Position numbers and translations under genes: made by a program. The notes below the pieces were generated by a model that made no database searches, had not been told where the DNA came from, and saw only the letters and a program-made list of their open reading frames with translations. DNA of 64,000 nt from Coptis chinensis (lineage: Eukaryota > Streptophyta > Magnoliopsida > Ranunculales > Ranunculaceae): contig CM027385.1 in the NCBI GenBank assembly GCA_015680905.1, positions 27,286,501-27,350,500 of the forward strand, given 5' to 3'. Numbering within the stretch: the first letter of the stretch is position 1; every line of letters starts with the position of its first letter. This document shows positions 1,892 through 46,730 of the stretch, one piece after another.

Positions 1892-2399
1892 CACTACAAG
1901 AAAACAGGTTTTTCCCCACGGTCAAAAACTGTGGGAAAAGGGTTTTCCCACAGTTACAGTTTTGGACCGTCGCAGGACCGTGGGCTTTTTGTGCATCGGG
2001 AATGGCCTGCCCACAGTCATGACCATCGGTAAAACCTACCAATAGCAATGGTTTTGGACTGTGGAAAAAGGTCATTTTTTCCTACAGTTTGGATCCGTAG
2101 GAGATGATGTTTTTGCTACGGTTCTAGACCGTGGCAGAGTTTTTTTTTAAAAAAAGAAAAAAAAATATTGATATTTTAATTCTTGAGATTCTACAATATT
2201 TCTAAACATCAACAATAAACCTCCTAATTACAATCAAATAACATTTTATATTAAAATATGATATCACCAAAAAAATCTTACGCGACTTTGACTTGTCACC
2301 AAATACACAAATTCTAAAATTTGTTACACCACGAATGAAATACACACACATTACGAAGGAAACACACATTATTTTTCCCAAATTCATAGGACCTTCTTA

Positions 2400-4226
2400 G
2401 ATCCTAGTTGTACCATCTTGTATAAGTTGTCCTCATCCAAAATAATTAGTGCCCAATCTTTGTGAACTTGACAAATTAAACCCTATAAAAAAGAAAAAAA
2501 TAAGTAAAAGTAGGAACATATAAATAAAGTTAAACGTGACTAACCAATTCAAAAGGAAACATGAACCAAAAAGTGTTGCCCTGTTTGCAGCAGGAATCTG
2601 TAATTAATAAGAACATTTTTATTTTACGCAGACAATTTGTTTTTTACTTGGTAAGTTTTATCTATTATATATAAGAAAAAAAAATGCAAAAAGATGTTTT
2701 ACGTATCTGACAATTGAACAAAAGTGAAGAATAAAACAATAAACTCAATAATCTATTTGAATTACACTTGCTTCACAATATCACTTGGACCACAAACTAT
2801 CTCGCATTTTATGTCCCGTTTTCTTATCATTTTCTGCAAGGTTCATAGTTGACTACTAATCGAATTAATAGTAATCCCAGTTTCAATACCATGTAGTAAC
2901 ACTAGCATCCAATCACCACAATACTCTAAAAAGTACTAAAAGCTTGTCCCGCAACAAGACCCCACTCTCATAGTCTACCCATCCTTGATAAAATACTACC
3001 TCAAGTCAAACTAATAAAACTATCCAAAACAAAGAATATATATTAGTCCTTCGGAATCCCTCCCCCCTCCTCTAATTAGTATCTCCTGGACGTCCTCCTT
3101 TTCCTGCCTTCATTTTCCACTTAGCTATTTCAAACTAATAGAATGAAGTGATGGGAGTAATGAAAGAATGAGAGTTGCAATATGATAAAATCTAAGGTAA
3201 GTTGTAAGTCTAGTCCAGGTGATAAGGTGTCTATTTTTCTTTCTGCTCTTACTGTTGGCTACCCCATTGAGTGACCAGCTCTCCCTTTGTCTTTGTTCTT
3301 CTTGAGAAGGTATATTGAGAGGAATTTTAAATTGGTGGGGTGTGGTAACTCTAGGCACCACCTCTTGGTTTATGCAAGTAGGAGGTGTATGTACCTCTTA
3401 CTCTCCTAAGGACACTTGGCACCTTAAGAACACATGCTGATCTAAACCAAAGTATTCTCATAAAAATGGTAAATCAAGAACACATGCTGATCTAAACCAA
3501 AGTCCACACTCTATTAATGCTTGAGGTTGCCCAAGCTTCTTATATAGCTCATTACATATATAACCACTGATAAATATGACTATCTATTCTAACTAATGAT
3601 TAGATAATTATATGGTTCTCAATAAAAATGGATATCAATAACTAATGACCAACCCCACTTACTAGTTACTTCTCTAGACCAAACAGTCACAAAAATGAAT
3701 AATATGAGCAACAAGTAGAAAATACCTTAAGCTTACCCCCAGAATATGTCAAAATGGATATGAAATTTCTACATTGTCTAGCAAAGCTTATAATTGTGAC
3801 ACATACCTCTTCCAGATACTAGAAATCAGGCCGCGCACTTCCCTAATGAACCACAATTGCAAATGCAGATGTTGAAGTTCCCACTGATTTGAAAATGTAT
3901 AAATTGAGAGTGATTGTTAACTAAATAACTTGCAATTAACACCTTTCAATTCAACTTGCTGACGAACCGAAAGTTGGCTGAATAAGGAAATAAAGTATGA
4001 AGGATAAGAAAATATATTGTCAACAAAACTATAATGTGGATACATTAAAGGTCTAGAGTACTAAGACTTACACAAAGAGACTTGTGTTACTGAATAGTGT
4101 CCATTTGAGCATTGCAAATCAACATGTTTAGATATCACAAGTAGCATCACAACTAGCAAATGTATGCTATAGTTGCATATAAACCAAAAGGGTTGCCAAT
4201 GTCTCAGAATCTAATCACGAGAATAC
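2400..4226. other. CACTA-1 interior without an assignable gene
   Basis: AT-rich sequence with many stops in all frames. A minus-strand stretch near 2400-2470 reads VHKDWALIILDEDNLYKMVQ and may be another exon remnant, but I cannot name it. A direct repeat of about 30 bp (AACACATGCTGATCTAAACC) occurs at about 3428 and 3478. Confidence 0.3.
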
Positions 4227-4329
4227 CTTTCAATTCATCACTAGAATGTGTCCAAATGCCGTGTTCATAAATCCGTTTCCACAACATCATAGCCTGCCCT
4301 GGCCTAAAACCAAGTGATTGCACCCATTT
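4227..4329 (-). pseudogene. Unrecognised exon-like fragment inside CACTA-1
   Basis: On the minus strand a 103-nt open segment is preceded by a good 3' splice site (GGTTGAACAG just before it) and followed by a GT donor (GTATTC). It reads KWVQSLGFRPGQAMMLWKRI and ends near THSSDELK. The protein-like composition and bordering splice signals suggest a captured host exon. I do not recognise the gene. It has the same orientation as the HUA1-like piece, so it could be a downstream exon of the same chimeric transcript. Confidence 0.35.
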
Positions 4330-4851
4330 CTGTTCAACCAAAACATTACAAGTAATAATATATACGTATAAGATCATAAAATGATTGTTGCAAGTAATAA
4401 TATATACATATAAGTAAAAGGAAAAGGTATTAAACCTTTAAAAGTAATAATTAGCTTATGAAACCAAGTAATAATTAGACCATATAACCAAGATGGAGTT
4501 CTACCTCGAGTGGTAGAAGTAGAGCATTGAGAAAACGGATTTACTAATTAGCCAATGTCACGAGACTTAGTGGTGTTTCTGAAGCGTGGTCAAACAGGAG
4601 GCAGTCTCTAGCTTTAGTCTTTGTTACAAGATTACCCGCAAAACATAGATTCTAGTATTTATTTATTATAAAGATAGGATGAGTTTTGATAGCTCCTAGG
4701 TAATATTTCTTCCTTCACACTATCGGTATTCAATAGTATGGCGAAGTAAATCAGTTGATAGATTATTAGACAAGACATAAATTTGTTTGAATAACTAAGC
4801 AAAGAAATAAAAATAATGATATAAAATGAAATGAGAAAAAGGAAAGGATAC

Positions 4852-5226
4852 CTTCGGTTTGCCTCTTCATGCCAGCAAGGACAGAGTCGTAACCACCACC
4901 AACCACCACCAACGGAGGCATAAACATCAGGAGTAGACCAGGAAGGAGGGGGAGGCATGGTGCTGCCGTACCTCATGATGTCGTCACACCTAAAACCAGG
5001 GTCAGCCTGGTTGTTATACAGAGAGGAGGATAAACTTATAATTCGAACTCCTCCTACACAGTGGTTGTGGTTGAGGTGGTCCATATCAATAGCAGGAGTG
5101 TACTCGGAGTGGTATCTCTCCGAGGAGAAAGCAACATATATAGGAGGAGCCACTAGTTGGGTTGTAACCATATATACCTCCTGCACTGTTCTTGTTGTTG
5201 TTGTAACCATACATCTGGTTTGCCAT
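4852..5226 (-). pseudogene. Captured first exon of a HUA1-like CCCH zinc-finger gene, frameshifted
   Basis: The minus strand starts with an ATG and reads MANQMYGYN. After frameshifts it continues with SSLYNNQADPGF, RCDDIMRYGSTMPPPP and finally GYDSVLAGMKRQTE, stopping exactly at a GT donor (GTATCC at 4851-4846). The opening MANQ-YGYN and the AGMKR segment resemble, from memory, the N-terminus of plant HUA1/ZC3H37-type RNA-binding CCCH proteins. The zinc fingers themselves would lie in later exons and are absent. The pieces lie in different frames, so no functional protein is made here. The identification is tentative; that this is a decayed first exon with start and donor is better supported. 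Confidence 0.5.
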
Positions 5227-5985
5227 TGTTTCTTTTTTCAAACTCAACAAACAAGCAAATGCCAGGGAGCTAGCTAGCCAGCAGCCTAGCAGCAACAGGT
5301 GTAAAAAAGACTGAGAGAGAATGAACCCTAAACCCAATAAAACTTGTTTCTTATAAGTAAAACAACTTATTTTAAGCAATCAAAATTGAGGTTGGGGTTA
5401 AACCATACCCATCCAGATACAAGGGGCACACTATAAACACAAAAATATTTACAGAGGGCATCACTAATCACAAGTACTTCTACTAAAAACATATCATAGA
5501 CCTACAATTCAACAATCTCTTTAAGGAGAATAAATTATAAAGCTAACAATATAATTACTAAATTCCACCATTTTCATACCTTTTTCCTTCCAACCAAGAG
5601 ATAGAAACAAGATCTGCGAGGAGTGAAAAATAGAAGAAATTAAAACTCTTGAACATAGTTCAAATTTTCATCAAACAATTTAAGTATTCGAAGAATATTA
5701 AGAGCTAATCCACAAAAAAACAAACCTATGTATACAAATCCCTAACCAAAATTAGTTTTCCAAATTAGAAATGTTAAGCGACACATTGAGAAACCCTAAC
5801 TCGTTCTCAAACCAAAATCTGAAATCCATTTAAACCCTTGGTCTATAAGAACAAAAAGTAAATAAGAGAATTGAAGAAAAAGGCACAAAAATAAAAACCT
5901 AAATTTTCCAAACCCAAAAAAGAGAAGAATAATTGAAGAAGAAGGAGAGGAAGAACTAACAAAAGAAGAATAGAAAAAAACTTAC

Positions 5986-6012
5986 CTTCGTTTTAGACGT
6001 GGTGGCTTCCAT
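5986..6012 (-). pseudogene. Possible short first exon near the right end of CACTA-1
   Basis: Nine codons beginning at an ATG read MEATTSKTK and end at a strong donor (CGAAG then GTAAG). This fits the first coding exon of a transcript starting just inside the right terminus and reading into the element on the minus strand. It may be a remnant of the transposon's own gene or captured sequence. The exon is too short to identify. Confidence 0.3.
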
Positions 6013-6311
6013 TGTTGGTGTGTTTGTGTTGTCAAACTTTATCTTGGAAAATCGATCTTTGCCTACGGTTTACAGGGGCAAAAAATAACTTTAAGCCATG
6101 GAAAGGCTTCCACACAAGAATCCAACGGATAAAACCGTGGGTAGCAGGTATGACCTAAATTGTGAACAACCATAGGTAAAAGTTGCAGAACCACGCCACA
6201 GTCCAACAAAGAAATAATTATGAATGAAGACCATGGGAAGACATGCGATAGCTCGAATCTCTGGCTAAAAATACTGGGCATCCGTGGCAAAAAGCCCATT
6301 TTCTTGTAGTG

Positions 6312-6487
6312 AAGCTGAATGGTAGGACGTTGTAGCAGAACGTTCCTTGTTCGGTTATAAAGGACGTATTTTTCTAATCTTCTTCTGAAAGCGGTATCTG
6401 ATTGTACCCATTGTATGCATCCATAAACGATAAAAGCTCATGTCCTCAAGTTTGATCCACCAGTATGTCGATCCTTAATAGGGGGAA
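6312..6487 (-). pseudogene. Reverse transcriptase, middle segment stranded between two CACTA insertions
   Basis: The minus strand reads PLLRIDILVDQT, then SFMDAYNGYNQIPL (the first catalytic aspartate region of RT), then TSFITEQGTFCYNVLPFS, with two in-frame stops. It joins upstream to KHCPKDNF at 11255 and downstream to KNAGATYQ at 1891. It is 176 bp of RT flanked on both sides by transposon termini. Confidence 0.88.
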
Positions 6488-6867
6488 AACTACAAGAATA
6501 CTGAGCATTTGCCATGGTTTATAACTGTTGCACGACCGTTGCCAATGCATGACCTAAAAGTTTATAACTATTGCACGACCGTTGCCGTGGCAGATAACCC
6601 TTTTGTCACAGCTGTGAACCGTGGCCAATGCTTAGATGAACTGTGGTGATTTTTTTTTTAACTAAATCAATAGTTTAGCCATGGTTCAAAGCCATGGCAA
6701 GTGTTTTGAATTGGGTAAAAAAATATATAATTCCAGCGCCTTTATACAACACCTGCAATTCATACAAAGATATACAATTCCATTCAAACCCACAAAAATC
6801 ATAATTCTTCACAATTTAACATTTCATACACAATGTGTACTCGACATGAACGTTTTTACATCATAGA

Positions 6868-7334
6868 TTCTGCCTATGCTGACTCGTCATGCCTTTTGGG
6901 CCCGCCGAGTGGGTCCACTTAGTGTGTCCAGTGGCAGCGCTGATTTTGGCATTTTTACCATTTTCTGTCTTTGCATAGGGTTCGTCACCCTGGTCACTCT
7001 GGCAGTTCACTAGCCAACGTCAGCATCTAGATTTATCAGATGTGAGCTTCGGAAGTTTGCTGCTTCTTTATATGTAGACCTGTTCTGCACTGGTTTTGTT
7101 CTTTTGGAAACTTCGACTCTAGTCAGGCTTTGTTGGGCTTCATTGGGGTTGAGTGGGAAACTTCAAATATTCCAATAGTCCCGTACTTCGATGCATGTTT
7201 TATCATTATCTTCATGTTAACTGCGGAAACCTACAAAAGTATGAAATTATAATTATTACATGATTATTAAACACATAATTGATCAAAATGCTATGTCTCT
7301 CGGGGTTTAATATTATAGTTTTGGGTGCTTATCA
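6868..7334 (-). repeat. LTR fragment inside CACTA-2, related to the LTR of element B
   Basis: The plus strand ends in TTTTGGGTGCTTATCA at 7334, matching the outer end of the LTR at 55562 (same last 16 bases). Upstream stretches also align, for example GTTTGCTGCTTCTTTATATG with GTTTGATGCTTCTGTGCAAA, and the TGATTATTAAACACATA segment. Only about one third of the 1.45-kb LTR is present. It is a truncated copy carried by the transposon, in the minus orientation as defined by TGATAAGCACCC. Confidence 0.7.
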
Positions 7335-7436
7335 GATTCCATTTGAAATCCAAACTAACATAGAGAAAAATATATAGTACTCTCTAAGAAATTTGAAATA
7401 TTATCATAGATTCCCCTTTTTTTTTTTTTTTTTTTT

Positions 7437-7590
7437 GAAAACATCACCAAATATAGCCCCCAAACTCGATAGACTATATTCATAGCCATCTAAACAACAC
7501 CTCAACTTCTTTGGATCAAAGTCTGCATATTCCAGTTCGCTTGCTTGTATCTCATCATGTTGGACAGTAGGCCAGGCATTAAAGATATAG
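7437..7590 (-). pseudogene. Unrecognised exon-like fragment in CACTA-2
   Basis: After a 3' splice-site-like TATGGTTTTAG the minus strand is open and reads IFNAWPTVQHDEIQASELEY, then FDPKKLRCCLDGYEYSL, ending in a run of 20 A. The composition looks like real protein. I do not recognise the family. It lies downstream of the acyl-CoA synthetase pieces in the same orientation, so it may be from the same or a third captured gene. Confidence 0.35.
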
Positions 7591-8249
7591 CTAAAACCAT
7601 ATAAAATCAATCATTAGAACTTGAACTACACGCACATCTTCACAGAAAAATTAAGTCAATATGTAAGATTCAATCATCATCAAAAAGAAAGAATAATAGT
7701 ACAAAACACTAATAAATATTTGTTTAAGAATTAAGTATCACAATCACAGAAGTAGTTTGTTGGCTTCTCTAGATAAACAACGGAGCAACACATACATCTG
7801 AACACCATTTTTGAATTATGAAAAACTACCTAATTGAGTAGTTTCGAATATTATATAACCTCATGTCCAGTTGATGATGGAAGAGACGGCATGTGTTCAT
7901 CTATTCCTCATACTACCTGCAAGAGAGAAAACAACTGGAGTTACATACCTCTACAAGGATTAATTTCATATACCAGTCACACCCATACCACTATTAGACG
8001 TACGGATGGAACCTCAAGCAAATAAGTCAGCTGCTAATTTCATTGTTGCTAACACACTATGTGCTAAGAGACGTACCACTTAACATTTGGTCCTGGACAT
8101 ATTAATGGATGGAATCTCAGATGAATAAGGTGACAAACATGAAAAGTGGGGTAAAAACACTTACAGTCTAGGATAAAATGTTAGCAACAATAAAATTAAA
8201 AATAAAAATAAAATAACAAACAAGGAACATAGGGCAAGCCTTATAGTAT

Positions 8250-8761
8250 TCAATGTATGTGGCACACAAAAGATGACTTGTACAAGCGTGATTCACAATA
8301 AACTTAATGGCATCGATTTGAACCTGAATATATTGAGAATTATAGAAACAAAAGAAAAACAAGATCAACTGAAGGGTCCACATATTAGATGTTATATCAT
8401 CAGTTTGAATGTAAGAAAAAACATACCAAGAGTATCATATAAAGGCAAGAAAATGTAAGAATACATATTACAAGGATGATCAATAATAATCCACTCTGGT
8501 CATTTTGTAAAACATAATCTAATGCTAGCTCCATGTTAACTAATGTAATCTGAGAACAACTAAGTTCTACTGGTTCTTTACAAAGTCTATTTGCATGAAA
8601 CATGCATATGATCAGGAAGAGTAAGCCTAATATCAAAACAAAGTACAAGAGAAAAAACCATGTTCCAACACAAACTCACTTTTGGTATCCCATGATACAA
8701 AAGACCGGATCCTATTGCTAATCGAGCAGTACTTGCTTCTCCATATGTCATCCATTTGTAT
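8250..8761 (-). pseudogene. Captured long-chain acyl-CoA synthetase fragment (peroxisomal LACS6/7-like), three exons
   Basis: Three minus-strand segments match the order of residues in plant LACS6/7. Exon one (8761-8681) reads KWMTYGEASTARLAIGSG and YHGIPK before a GTGAGT donor. Exon two (about 8500-8427) reads PEWIIIDHPCNMYSY and LPLYDTLG before GTATG. Exon three starts at 8323 after ATATTCAG and reads AIKFIVNHA. Intact LACS activates long-chain fatty acids with CoA for beta-oxidation. Here only part of the N-terminal third survives, without the AMP-binding signature. Introns are retained, so the capture happened at the DNA level. Confidence 0.75.
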
Positions 8762-9221
8762 CTTAAGTGCAAAGTATAAATAAAAATCAGTATAAAGATC
8801 GACAGTGTAATTAAACTAGTGGTCTTGACAAAATAGACTGTAAAAATTATAGATTAGTGTGTATCATACGAAGGTCGATGATCATACAAGATGGCATTCC
8901 CAGACCCCTTTTTCCCAGTAGTTGTCAAATCATCAAACTCTACAATAATGACAATGACAAATAGAAGAAAAAGTAATAACAATTGTAATCAAATTATATA
9001 CATGGATGCATACACATGGATAACAACTTACAGAGATTTGACTGATAAAAAGAAAACATATATGGTGGTTTGAGACACAGCATGAAAATGTATAGCTATT
9101 ACGACATAAGAGATATACGACTTATATCTTAGATGCAATTTTCACTTGCACAAAAAGACCTTAGCAACTTGCTTATTACATTTTTAAATACGATGATCCC
9201 AATACGAAAAAAATCTCACCT

Positions 9222-9812
9222 TGCCTTGGCAGCCTTATTTGCTTTTGAAACTTTGTCTGAGCAACTTTTCCGTAAGGCATTTCATCTAGTGTCTCATCAT
9301 TGTTGACCTACGTATACATGAACATCAAATTGTGTCAAAAGCAAGCATAATTAACTTGGATAATGAACACTACTACTAAAAACTTTAGAGCACATACTGG
9401 AGGGAGATCTGACATTACATCTTCAAGACGAAGAGCTTCTTCTAAATTACAAGGGTTTTCTTCTATAACATGGCTTTCTTGTAAGTACGGAGAAATTACT
9501 TTTGAAAAAATATTAGTTCCAATCAAAACATATAGAAGGTTTTGTAGAACTGAGAAAAGGTTATCCCGTACAATGATGTACCTAAAACTCACAAGGTATA
9601 CCGCCTCATTGGTTAACAACATGGTGTGTAGGCAAGGGGAACTGAGGCAAATTCTAGAAAAAAAAAATGCAACAAGTCTAAAACATAGACCAGTGGACAT
9701 GGCACCATAGCCATAATACAAATCAAGTAACTTCATCTCAGATTCCTCTAAATCTTCACCGGAACATTCCTTACTCGAACTTGGAAAAGATGGATCCAGA
9801 AACTCTCTTGAA
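9222..9812 (-). pseudogene. Captured chromomethylase (CMT-type) methyltransferase-domain fragments
   Basis: At 9740-9685 the minus strand reads MKLLDLYYGYGAMSTGLC, the S-adenosylmethionine-binding motif I of plant chromomethylases, preceded by an acidic serine-rich linker. Further down (about 9480-9395) it reads LEEALRLEDVMSDLPPV up to a GTATGTG donor. After an intron ending GTATACGTAG, the next exon reads NNDETLDEMPYGKVAQT, ending in a GTGAG donor. This order matches CMT3-type enzymes, which methylate CHG cytosines. The central part with the catalytic PCQ motif and chromodomain is missing. Some expected residues differ (DLYYGYG where DLYSGCG is usual). Clearly non-functional. Confidence 0.78.
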
Positions 9813-10074
9813 GAATCTAACCAGATTTGTTATCAGTCAGTATTGCAGCATATGGCGTAATCAGATGCCTTACTTTCCAATACTAAACAAAACAGTAATA
9901 TACCTGATGGTAGGCTTTGAAAGGTTGAATAAGGCAAAGAGTATATATGCCATATTATATAAAAAAAAACACACTGCGGTATTTCTGCCAAATTTATCTA
10001 TTTAATAAGATGAATTAGTCTGGACTGAAACGAAAGAAAACGCACTAAATAGGGCAGAGTGATAGAGGCATACA

Positions 10075-10584
10075 TTTGAGGGCACTTGTAAAACTGTGAT
10101 CTTTGAAATCAGACATTCTAATGGGTTGTCATCTCTGACTTTAGAATATAATTCATGTCTCTCATCGAATGTGCTATTCAGCTCTTGGGTGACAACCTCT
10201 TTAAAGACCAAGTTAAACATCCAAGCACAAAAACACCATTACAATAAACACACAGTATATATAACATAACAAAGTGTTGTAGAAGGTCGACAATTAATCT
10301 TACAGTATCAACTGGTCTAAAAAACCATTACGCTCTGGAAAAAGGCTCGTTATTGTAGGATTCAAAAAATTCCACTATTCTTCCTGTATAATTGAGCTTT
10401 TCACCTTCAAACTGCTTGAAATAATACTCTTGGTAAGGATAGTACATAGTGAATAATGCTAACACAAATTTATACTTTCATTACTCACTTGCACATACCC
10501 ATGATCATATAGAATATAAATAGTTTGATCCACTTCTGCTTTTGAAAAATGTCCCCTTGCTAGTAACTTGTCTTTATCACCATT
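10075..10584 (-). pseudogene. Captured chromomethylase BAH-domain exons
   Basis: Two minus-strand exons with splice borders. The first (10584-10489, after TTTTTTCCAG and before GTGAGTAA) reads ARGHFSKAEVDQTIYILYDH and GYVQ. The second (about 10205-10075, before GTATGC) reads HELYSKVRDDNPLECLISK and ITVLQVPSN. Both fit the bromo-adjacent homology (BAH) domain that precedes the methyltransferase domain in plant CMT proteins, and they lie upstream of the motif-I fragment in the correct order. Together they show that one contiguous genomic region of a CMT gene was picked up by the transposon. Confidence 0.7.
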
Positions 10585-11254
10585 CTGGAAAAAACAAAAA
10601 ACAAGAATATTGGATATCAAAATGGCCCATAACAGCAAAATACAAGATCTCATAGAACATACATGACATAAAAAAAAATAGCCACAAGTAATTTCATCAA
10701 AAAAAGTATAAAAAAACAAAAACAGATATAAGAGTGCAATCAAACCTGGTCCTTGTGACTCTAGCGTGAAAGAGAGAGTGTGTGAAGGAGAAAAATTGAT
10801 GCTTTTCCTCGATCTTCAACCTAGGTGAGAGACAGAGAGAGAGGGGGGAGGAAAGTTCTACTAGATGAGAGAAGTGAATAAAAGAGAAGTACTATTTATA
10901 GAGGAGAGAGAGAAGGAAGACAAACCTCGTTGTTGCTTTAAAATTGAGTTTTCATTCGAACAACTCGAGTCTTCTTCTTCAATTTTTGATAGTTATTTTG
11001 TGGCTACTCTTTAGTTTCACAAGGGTTTCATGAAATCTTAACGGACATCAAAATCCATGTCTAATCCAAAGGTGGACAAAACAAATGGACACATCCGTGG
11101 CCAAAATGGGAACTAAAATCCAACTACCCAAACAATACCCTATGGCCACTTAAAAACTTAGCCACGGCTGTGGGTCGTTAGACCCTGGTAACAACTGATG
11201 ACAGTGGTTAAAGCAAGGTTGTACCTGTGGCAAAAGCTCAATTTTCTTGCAGTG

Positions 11255-12300
11255 GAAGTTGTCCTTTGGGCAATGCTTGTTGACGTTGGTGAAGTCTATG
11301 CAAAGTCGTACTTGGCCATTCTTCTTTGGAATGGCTACGATGTTAGCTAGCCAGGTAGGGTACTCGACTTCTCTGATGAATCCAACATTTTTGAGCTTTT
11401 CTATCTCTTCATTGATGGCCTTTTGAAATTTAAGTGCTAGTTTCCTAGGTCGTTGTTTGATAGGCTTGACAGTTGGATCTACATTTAACTTATGGCAAGC
11501 GACCTGAAGGTCAATTCCTGGCATATTGATATACGACCAAGCAAAAACATCTTTATTGAGAAATAGAAATTTGACAAGTTGCTCCTTGAGCTTGGGGTCT
11601 AAGTCAGCCCCCACATAAAAAAATTTTGGGTCATCATTTGTGCCCAAATTGACTTTTTCTCCAGGTTCTATTTGTGCTTGCTTCCCTTTGAGCTTGTCTT
11701 GTGCTGCGGTTGGAGTGTTGGAAGGTTGAGGATCTTGGTTCTTTGGGACGTCTTTGCCTTCGACTACCTGAGGCTTGGCCATGGTTGTTGTGCTAATGTG
11801 GTTGCATCGGTGAGCTTCTAGTTGGTTGCTTCTGAGCTCTATGATGCCTCGGGGTCTGGGGAACTGCATGACTTGGTGTTGGGTTGATGGAATTGCTTGG
11901 ATCTTGTGAATCCATCGGTGGCCTAAAATGGCAGTGTAGGACGACTTGACATCGATCACACTAGAGCGTGTTGAAGTTTTTACCATGTTCTCTTTTTCTC
12001 CAATGGAGACTGGTAGGATGACGTCTCTAATGGCATCTGTGCGGTCTCCATTGAACCCATAGAATGGTGTATTTGATTCTATCATCACCGAGTCTGGCAG
12101 GTGCATGTCTATGTATGTTTGATAGAAAAAGATTTTGCAAGAGCTGCCTGGATCGATGAAGACTCTTTTGATTATCTACCCGTTGATTTTGAAGTGCACT
12201 ACCAGTGCGTCATTATGGGGTAGGCACACCTTGTCTAGATCTTCCTTAGTGAATGAAATTGTTATTGTTATTTGAGGGCTGAGAGGATTGATCACCTCAG
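11255..12300 (-). pseudogene. Protease and RT N-terminus of the Tat element
   Basis: From the gag side the minus strand passes VFIDPGSSCKIFF (aspartic protease active-site segment, D-P-G), then a long open frame (12106 to the CACTA-2 border) with SYTAILGHRWIHKIQAIPS and a linker. The RT fingers follow: WSYINMPGIDLQVACHKLNV, KQRPRKLALKFQKAI, WLANIVAIPKKNGQVRLCID, ending KHCPKDNF at 11255. The residues that follow in the open frame come from the CACTA terminus and are not retroviral. Confidence 0.85.
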
Positions 12301-36245: not shown

Positions 36246-36981
36246 AGTGTGAGGGAGACCAAGATCTGGATTTTTAGGGGGAAGAAATGAGAGGTTTGGA
36301 CGCGTGGGTGCCCCACGTGTGGGTTTTTGTAGCCGGGTCAGTGTTTTTGGGTTAGGTCCAATTTTTTTGCCCAAGCCCAAATGAATTCCAGAAATTCCCC
36401 TTATGTCCCGAATTGTTCCGAAATTTCAAACTTGGAATTTCGATTAGTTTTAACTCCAAATTGAACCAATGAGATATCAAAACAATCGACATTAAAAATT
36501 CCATCCACTGGAATATGATATAATCACATTCAAACTCATTTTTTTTTTTTTTTTTTTTTTGTGATTTTATTTATTTACAGATTTATATACAAATGTACAA
36601 GACGAAAGGAACGTGTCAACAACACCGGAAGTCCAAATAAAACAACACATCATAACAGCTTAGCTCAGGCAACTTTCATGTCGGCTCTGGGGCAAACTCA
36701 ATCCAGCCAGACTGTGGCTTAACCTTTATGTTATGGGGGCCTAGGGTTCAGGACGGTACCATCCCTGATCAATGTGCAATGGTCTAGTAATAATATTACC
36801 CTTAGTACATATGGTATAGCTTCAAACCGCCCCCTTGATACTGATCACATAGAAAACCGATCGGGGGTTGGCCGGTGGAATCCATTGCCCCGCACGAACT
36901 AGGAAATGTCCGATGTTGCATATCACGACTTTCTTTGGGCACCATGCTTGGTGCTAAGGGAAAAACGAGTATATACATGTT

Positions 36982-37117
36982 GAGTCTTTTAACGTCAGAT
37001 CCTCAAGACGAATGTGAGTCTTTTAATGTCAGATCCTCAAGATGAATGAGAGTCTTTTAACGTCAGATCCTCAAGACGAATGGGAGTCTTTTAACGTCAG
37101 ATCCTCAAGACGAATCC
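36982..37117. repeat. Four tandem copies of a 34-bp unit
   Basis: The unit GAGTCTTTTAACGTCAGATC plus CTCAAGACGAATGN occurs four times head to tail with two or three substitutions in copy two. It lies directly after the 114-codon ORF's stop and overlaps its last codons. Confidence 0.95.
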
Positions 37118-46498: not shown

Positions 46499-46581
46499 CT
46501 TAACAATACGCTCTGGAATAGCTGCAAATCACCCAGGAACAACCCGCAGAAAACTGGAATTTTCCGTGTTCATAGAAGGCA

Positions 46582-46730
46582 GGGCGCGGGTCGCGCTCTG
46601 AGGTTTTTAGAGTTATAGTGTTTGGGTGTGAGTCGCGCTCAAGTTAGGGGCGGGTCGCGCTCTGAGGTTTTTGGAGTTACAGTGTTTGGGCGCGAGTCGC
46701 GCTCAAGTTGGGGGCGGGTCGCGCTCTGAG
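46582..46730. repeat. GC-rich tandem repeat in the ORF2 leader of element A
   Basis: About 2.3 copies of a 65-bp unit carrying GCGCGGGTCGCGCTCTGAG and GAGTCGCGCTCAAGTT. A variant of the same word, GCGCGGGTCGAGCTTCAGGG, is found in this element's gag leader at about 50030. Confidence 0.85.

Follow-up and report, generated by a model that had tools for sequence, protein, structure and literature searches.

The closest described relatives of the locus analyzed here are the Pack-CACTA elements of Arabidopsis, rice, and maize. These are non-autonomous elements with CACTA ends and a target site duplication (TSD) whose cargo combines pieces of two or more host loci, and the fusion of two neighboring elements has been described for them (PMC8903248, PMC13317346). 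Tgm-Express1 of soybean, also of the CACTA type, contains several unrelated host gene fragments with exons and introns kept (PMC1947982). In Arabidopsis, the chromomethylase gene CMT1 is broken by Evelknievel or by frameshifts (PMC6238269). In Zymoseptoria tritici, a DNA methyltransferase gene was amplified; the fungal mutation system RIP disabled every copy, and the genome no longer has cytosine methylation (PMC6710886). VANDAL elements carry an anti-silencing protein, VANC (PMC13317346).

We analyzed a 64-kb stretch of the Coptis chinensis genome (hereafter, the window). It contains an element that is like the known Pack-CACTA elements in its ends, TSD, and non-autonomy and in combining pieces of different host loci, and like Tgm-Express1 in keeping the exons and introns of unrelated genes.

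Structure of the element

Element B occupies window positions 6488–11254 on the minus strand (Table 1) and is a non-autonomous CACTA element with fragments of a chromomethylase (CMT) gene and a long-chain acyl-CoA synthetase (LACS) gene inside, both in the same, minus orientation. Its termini are of the CACTA type (CACTACAAGAA at 6488 and TTCTTGCAGTG at 11254); the first base of the left terminus is A, where the CACTA consensus has C. Motifs resembling CCATGGC/CCGTGGC lie mostly in the outer few hundred bases at both ends (raw motif positions, one mismatch allowed). Inverted repeats of the CACTA type, the 3-bp TSD, and these subterminal repeats place element B in the CACTA superfamily, while its non-autonomous structure, with host gene pieces from CMT and LACS between CACTA ends, is that of a Pack-CACTA. 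The sole stop-to-stop frame of at least 120 codons lying wholly within 6488–11254 is the CMT frame at 9335–9829.

The host site of element B is the reverse-transcriptase gene of a degenerate Gypsy element, which the neighboring element A has also entered. When one TSD copy was removed and the short flanks were joined, the Gypsy reverse-transcriptase frame resumed at the sites of both elements. Position 6870 joins 7334 or later in the other copies and relatives, with an overlap of about 6 bases; the stretch between is probably a nested insertion private to the window copy.

The LACS fragment, presumably of the LACS6/7 type, matched the Pfam AMP-binding model with an E-value of 2.4e-6 and 27.0 bits, short of the curated 29.9-bit cut-off, and its pieces gave no match in the PDB. 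A further minus-strand gene-like peptide, FNAWPTVQHDEIQASELEYADFDPKKLRCCLDGYEY.. at 7583–7437, is perhaps a third captured piece; it had no Pfam match.

Table 1. Features of the window around elements A and B (window positions; exon numbers follow the model of the full-length relative L014).
Feature	Positions	Strand	Remarks
Element A, neighboring CACTA-type element	1892–6311		own TSD AAG, same Gypsy reverse transcriptase
TSD left, element B	6485–6487		GAA
Left end of CACTA family	6488–6870		CACTACAAGAATACTGAGCATTTGCC terminus and CCATGGC/CCGTGGC-like repeats
Stretch absent from other copies reaching there	6871–7333		about 463 bases, direct repeat of about 6 bases at ends
LACS gene fragment	8230–8760	-	exons near 8760–8680, 8499–8425, about 8317–8230
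CMT exon 15, 5' part	8871–8939	-	..ILYDHRP
Left capture junction	8871–8876		CMT-less relatives end at 8876/8875, donor homology starts at 8871
CMT exon 14	9220–9307	-	VNNDETLDEMPYGKVAQTKFQKQIRLPRQ
CMT exon 13	9398–9462	-	..LEEALRLEDVMSDLPP
CMT exon 12	9582–9653	-	LPQFPLPTHHVV..; two in-frame stops
Internal deletion point	9680–9685		exon 6 joined to intron before exon 12
CMT exon 6, truncated	9680–9816	-	methyltransferase motif I, LLDLYYGYGAMSTGLC
CMT exon 5	9904–10024	-	121 bases vs 115 in L014; one stop
CMT exon 4	10074–10208	-	BAH, RDDNPLECLISK; acceptor AG changed to TG
CMT exon 3	10304–10411	-	BAH, GRIVEFFES; in-frame TAA
CMT exon 2	10489–10584	-	ARGHFSKAEVDQTIYILYDH
Right end of CACTA family	10695–11254		right capture boundary 10694/10695
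TSD right, element B	11255–11257		GAA

Element A contains an open stretch of 192 codons at 4659–5237 and a gene-like peptide within 4437–4207; neither peptide had a Pfam match. Tandem arrays were seen at 36981–37115 (four copies of a 34-base unit) and 46581–46730 (2.3 copies of a 64-base unit). The window holds 36 stop-to-stop frames of at least 120 codons, of which 13 were scanned with Pfam: five matched retroelement-type domains (RNase H, integrase, zf-RVT and, weakly and under the cut-off, a protease) and eight gave no match. No host gene was noticed in the window, with 13 of its 36 frames scanned.

Chromomethylase fragment

Exon numbers follow a model of the full-length relative L014 that was built by hand and lacks one late exon. 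On this model, nine exons, 2–6 and 12–15, were mapped with their introns at window 10584–8871; the interval 9222–10584, singled out in an earlier note made from the sequence, spans exons 2–14, and one further exon lies at 8939–8871. The introns are indeed retained, as the earlier note had said, and all the BAH-domain and methyltransferase words that it quoted occur on the minus strand in the order given there. Its description of the splice borders holds in general, with AG and GT at the exon edges, but not for exon 4, whose acceptor reads TG, nor for exons 6 and 15, which are cut.

A translated comparison with chromomethylases, proposed as a check on the fragment, yielded clear matches: the spliced peptide matched three plant chromomethylase chain sequences of the PDB, labeled DNA (cytosine-5)-methyltransferase 1, with E-values of 7.8e-37 to 9.2e-37 and about 130 bits. 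The matches cover chain residues 38–230 (4fsx, which we take to be maize ZMET2) and 480–590 in the two chains with alignments shown, and the gap between the two regions corresponds to the chromodomain and catalytic motif IV. The Pfam BAH match was weak (E 9.8e-6, 25.9 bits, under the cut-off of 30.8). The CACTA ends, the TSD, and the CMT3-type match together bear out the claim that a CACTA transposon carries pieces of a chromomethylase gene.

A deletion of about 1.54 kb, shared with copy L009, removed exons 7–11 with the chromodomain and catalytic motif IV; where the two alignments to L014 meet at the deletion point, they have 6 bases in common. Four in-frame stops are present (one each in exons 3 and 5, two in exon 12). 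The window copy keeps only the BAH domain, motif I, and later stretches, exons 7–11 and those from 16 onward of the L014 model being absent. The piece is a fragment, not a chromomethylase.

Copies of the family in the genome

A DNA search of the 935.6-Mb genome with window 9200–10600 gave 31 matches, from which 16 places besides the window were read: 11 element copies and five other CMT-like loci (L014, L021, L022, L023, and L024). Including the window, 12 CMT-carrying copies were found; the right end was read in all 12 and the left end in nine. Matching 3-bp TSDs flank eight of them, one (L011) has a TSD with a one-base difference, and three could not be judged. Among the 11 other copies, two pairs have common right flanks (L013/L015, 95.9%; L016/L017, 94.0%) and are, by these flanks, segmental duplicates, so the number of CMT insertions is about ten. 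That the CMT-like piece is an old host pseudogene entered by CACTA elements, and not cargo, has next to no probability. Broken or partial host CMT-like loci (L021, L022, L023) do exist, but this right end is found with this cargo at 12 places on C2, C3, C4, C8, and C9, only the two pairs among the 11 other copies share flanks (the window flanks lying outside this comparison), and the Gypsy frame can be followed on both sides of the window copy that interrupts it.

The left 26-base terminus, with up to three mismatches, had 179 matches in the genome and its reversed control none; 10 of the 100 places listed were CMT copies (nine read, L013 by position), that is, at least 10 of the 179. The search with the right end gave 106 candidates, of which 40 were scored: 12 matched from base 1–5 and were the 12 CMT copies, while the other 28 matched only from base 46 or later. 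CMT-bearing copies are a minority of the family (12 of the 40 scored right ends and at least 10 of the 179 left ends) and are outnumbered 28 to 12 by CMT-less relatives among the scored right ends. The LACS stretch had 34 genome matches, many at places where the CMT search gave none. Two longer copies, L010 and L015, hold exons 2 to 11, most of exon 12, and parts of exons 14 and 15.

CACTA elements are very abundant in this genome. The first look gave 2715 Transposase_21 candidates; the 150 that were scored all passed the cut-off. With 150 of the 2715 scored, the analysis turned up no autonomous element that joins both of these ends to an intact transposase. A 14.6-kb stretch on C9 (64540000–64554600; L032, L033) begins with this left end, has a weak right end, and was considered as an autonomous partner. 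It has an Ulp1-type protease match (Peptidase_C48, PF02902, E 7.3e-5) and filamin/Ig-like pieces, and the seven of its 60 listed reading frames that were scanned gave no transposase match. The Ig/filamin-like pieces (PF17963, E 1.2e-7; PF00630, below the cut-off) perhaps come from another captured gene.

Capture junctions and proposed course

The earlier note had proposed a comparison of copies of this CACTA family. Setting the 12 CMT copies beside CMT-less relatives with the same ends located the junctions: relatives that have these ends and the LACS piece but no CMT bracket the capture. L030 and L031, whose left termini are among the listed terminus matches, follow element B to 8876 and 8875, respectively, and again from 10695; where element B has CMT, they hold 2.2 and 2.0 kb of other DNA. 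These stretches of about 2 kb lie at 3161–5346 of L030 and 2625–4665 of L031. In L028 and L029, the left end and the LACS piece are present, with no CMT within the stretch read. Homology to L014 extends over 8871–10644 of the window. At the left junction, AGGT is common to precursor and donor; the right junction, read by eye, is rich in A and contains about 18 bp of filler. The 28 of 40 scored right ends that begin at base 46 or later put the right edge of the captured stretch at 10694/10695.

We are confident that the best explanation is ordinary Pack-CACTA transduplication, i.e., an accidental capture. A non-autonomous CACTA element with the LACS fragment already aboard would have acquired, between its left and right portions, a piece of genomic chromomethylase DNA of about 3.3 kb that begins within intron 1, ends within exon 15, and includes the introns. 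Microhomology-guided repair may have brought this about, or else the fusion of two neighboring elements; the junctions fit repair with template switching and fusion equally well. The composite would then have been mobilized to about ten sites by a transposase from elsewhere. Some copies lost internal parts, among them the window copy, which lost exons 7–11. No selected protein comes from the copies, which decay neutrally and bear a footprint of CHG methylation. The capture itself is well demonstrated; the order of the captures, their mechanism, the transposase source, and the lack of a regulatory role are inferred.

Probable donor lineage and other host chromomethylase loci

A donor gene in the same genome, which the earlier note had suggested locating, was traced to a probable source, the L014 lineage, 93–95% identical to the copies: L014 is 93.3% identical to the window copy and 93.4–95.4% to the other 11 (pairwise mapping, gaps left out). 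L014 comprises the gene from the first exon to the end on an unplaced contig of 315 kb. Its protein has a best database match of 58% identity, in Macleaya cordata, and among the 120 listed of 1240 matches, the specifically named ones were mostly of CMT3 or CMT1 types. L014 has private changes at 10 of 2270 sites, against 25 changes common to the elements and 65 in L022. The L014 lineage is the probable source of the captured CMT, and L014 may be an allele or a sister of the true donor; a surviving host source, as expected of a Pack-CACTA, is present in L014 or a close sister.

The L014 frame appears to have two single-base losses, in exons 6 and 8, and the gene seems to be frameshifted and decaying. 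The exon 6 loss is private to L014 among the sequences compared. The exon 8 loss is common to seven of the 10 copies keeping exon 8 and is absent from L021 and L022; in L015 and L016 the exon is shorter by yet another base, L018 shows a different state, and exon 8 is missing from the window copy and from L009. A break common to L014 and seven of 10 copies suggests that the L014 lineage was broken before the capture. An assembly error may lie behind the L014 frame breaks; in L012 and L017, the exon 8 site is changed further yet still shorter, which favors a real loss. At the start of exon 8 (L014 about 6500–6430), dense substitutions and indels occur around CAG/CTG in several copies and in L022; they look like long-read calling errors at methylated CHG, through which frameshifts may be overcounted in assemblies of this kind. 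Outside the decaying branch of L014, L021, and L022, the host has at least four further CMT-like loci (L024, L025, L026, and L027).

Coding constraint on the captured exons

Variable sites in the 12 copies were distributed evenly over codon positions 1, 2, and 3: 105/525, 97/525, and 104/526 (p 0.80) for all sites, and 69/453, 64/464, and 69/469 (p 0.82) with CG and CHG sites left out. As a positive control, exon 11 of L014 compared with its paralog L024 showed 17, 12, and 41 differences at positions 1, 2, and 3; this skew to position 3 indicates that the method can see constraint. Anti-silencing by protein would call for an intact, selected product, while the stops, the deleted exons, and the equal codon positions led us to reject a functional protein from the captured CMT. 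Neutrality of the cargo at the protein level is well supported.

That an early, longer copy could have encoded a dominant-negative protein, its BAH domain and chromodomain competing with the host enzyme, is extremely unlikely. L010 and L015 span exons 2 to 11, and exon 11 is open in L015, but exon 8, which lies between motif I and the chromodomain, lacks a base in L014 and in seven of 10 copies, so the captured frame was probably broken already; nor do the copies show a codon-position bias.

CHG methylation footprint

Footprints were counted at sites with C in both L014 and L022 and T in the copies (pairwise mapping). Over the 12 copies, C-to-T changes were found in 111 of 1184 CHG cells, 126 of 5132 CHH cells, and 96 of 612 CG cells, these cells not being independent; counted by sites hit, the values were 64 of 149 for CHG and 72 of 714 for CHH (p 2e-19). 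The window copy alone had 9/63 at CHG and 5/299 at CHH. The CHG excess spans the whole element; it reaches the 0.05 level in eight of the 12 copies (L011 being marginal) and does not in L012, L017, L018, and L020.

Transversions (76/1868 at CHG vs 139/7211 at CHH) and deletions (41/1868 vs 49/7211) are also raised at CHG, which makes the footprint a weaker argument for deamination as its only cause. Some of the signal is therefore probably base-calling error at methylated sites, and some of the stops and frameshifts of the copies may not be real. Deamination and calling error alike imply CHG methylation of the copies. CHG methylation is the product of chromomethylases, so this CMT-carrying family is probably a target of the pathway from which its cargo derives, and the footprint suggests that the capture did not shield the CACTA family from CHG methylation.

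L014 itself bears no footprint, with C-to-T changes at 1/137 CHG and 2/696 CHH. Compared with L022, it has C-to-T changes at 23 of 134 CG sites and none at CHG sites in the captured (0/102) or uncaptured (0/41) part; such CG-only change is the pattern of body-methylated genes. L021 has no CHG excess. L022 has one (18/174 in the captured and 7/68 in the uncaptured part); element-directed methylation of L022 was considered and rejected, the excess being equal in the two parts with no sign of it.

Possible effects on host chromomethylases

The earlier note had offered two readings: that transcripts or small RNAs from the fragment act against the host CMT as a counter-defence, relieving CHG silencing of the element, or a chance capture. 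The second is the better reading of copies that are broken, unconstrained, and CHG-footprinted. Counter-defence by RNA appears very unlikely. The cargo does belong to the right gene family, multicopy methylated elements usually make small RNAs, and the window copy shares 433 of its 1754 exact 21-mers with L014, 243 with L022, and 58 with L021. In contrast, none of the 1754 is shared exactly with the fetched stretches of L024, L025, L026, or L027; with up to two mismatches, 17 match L024 and none match L025, L026, and L027. Copies L010, L012, and L015 likewise had no exact 21-mers with L024–L027 and, with up to two mismatches, 31–41 of 1990–2962 with L024 and 0–16 with L025–L027. Direct small-RNA targeting of these four loci was rejected on sequence. 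Outside the copies, the genome search with the fragment listed only L014, L021, L022, L023, and two short stretches of L024. L014 is without a CHG footprint, while the copies themselves carry a strong one. The idea of counter-defence against the host CMT, confronted with the lack of exact 21-mers in the four other loci, the lack of codon constraint, and the footprint on the copies, finds no support, and a regulatory role is partly contradicted.

A narrower reading concerns the donor branch: CMT-bearing copies might once have fed small RNAs to L014/L022, helping to silence and break them. We regard this as very unlikely and keep it open because 21-mers are shared, L022 bears a CHG footprint, and both genes are apparently decaying. 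A weak or past effect of the copies on the L014 branch may have existed. If true, such silencing would mirror, in a plant, the way Zymoseptoria lost its methyltransferase. Accidental capture remains our preferred explanation.

Comparison with known systems

Transposon gene capture is common; a captured piece of the CHG methylation machinery provides a clean test case for crosstalk between transposons and silencing genes. The copies, the likely donor lineage, and the CMT-less sisters survive side by side in this genome, which makes it possible to attribute small RNAs and methylation to each of them. In the open-licence PubMed Central literature, by titles and abstract starts among the matches listed, we found no CACTA element described as carrying part of a chromomethylase, and it is this cargo that sets element B apart from the known Pack-CACTA elements. 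Tgm-Express1 sits in a gene and has its pieces spliced into transcripts (PMC1947982), whereas element B sits in a broken Gypsy element.

VANDAL elements with VANC would be the functional parallel of the counter-defence idea; VANC, however, is a working protein gene (PMC13317346), whereas the cargo of element B is broken and unconstrained. Arabidopsis CMT1 is similar in being a little-needed chromomethylase paralog in decay, as L014 and L022 seem to be, and differs in that a retroelement entered the gene (PMC6238269), while in Coptis a transposon carries a gene piece. The nearest precedent that we found for a multiplied methyltransferase gene is fungal: in Zymoseptoria tritici every copy was inactivated (PMC6710886), whereas Coptis keeps other CMT loci beside the 12 partial copies found.
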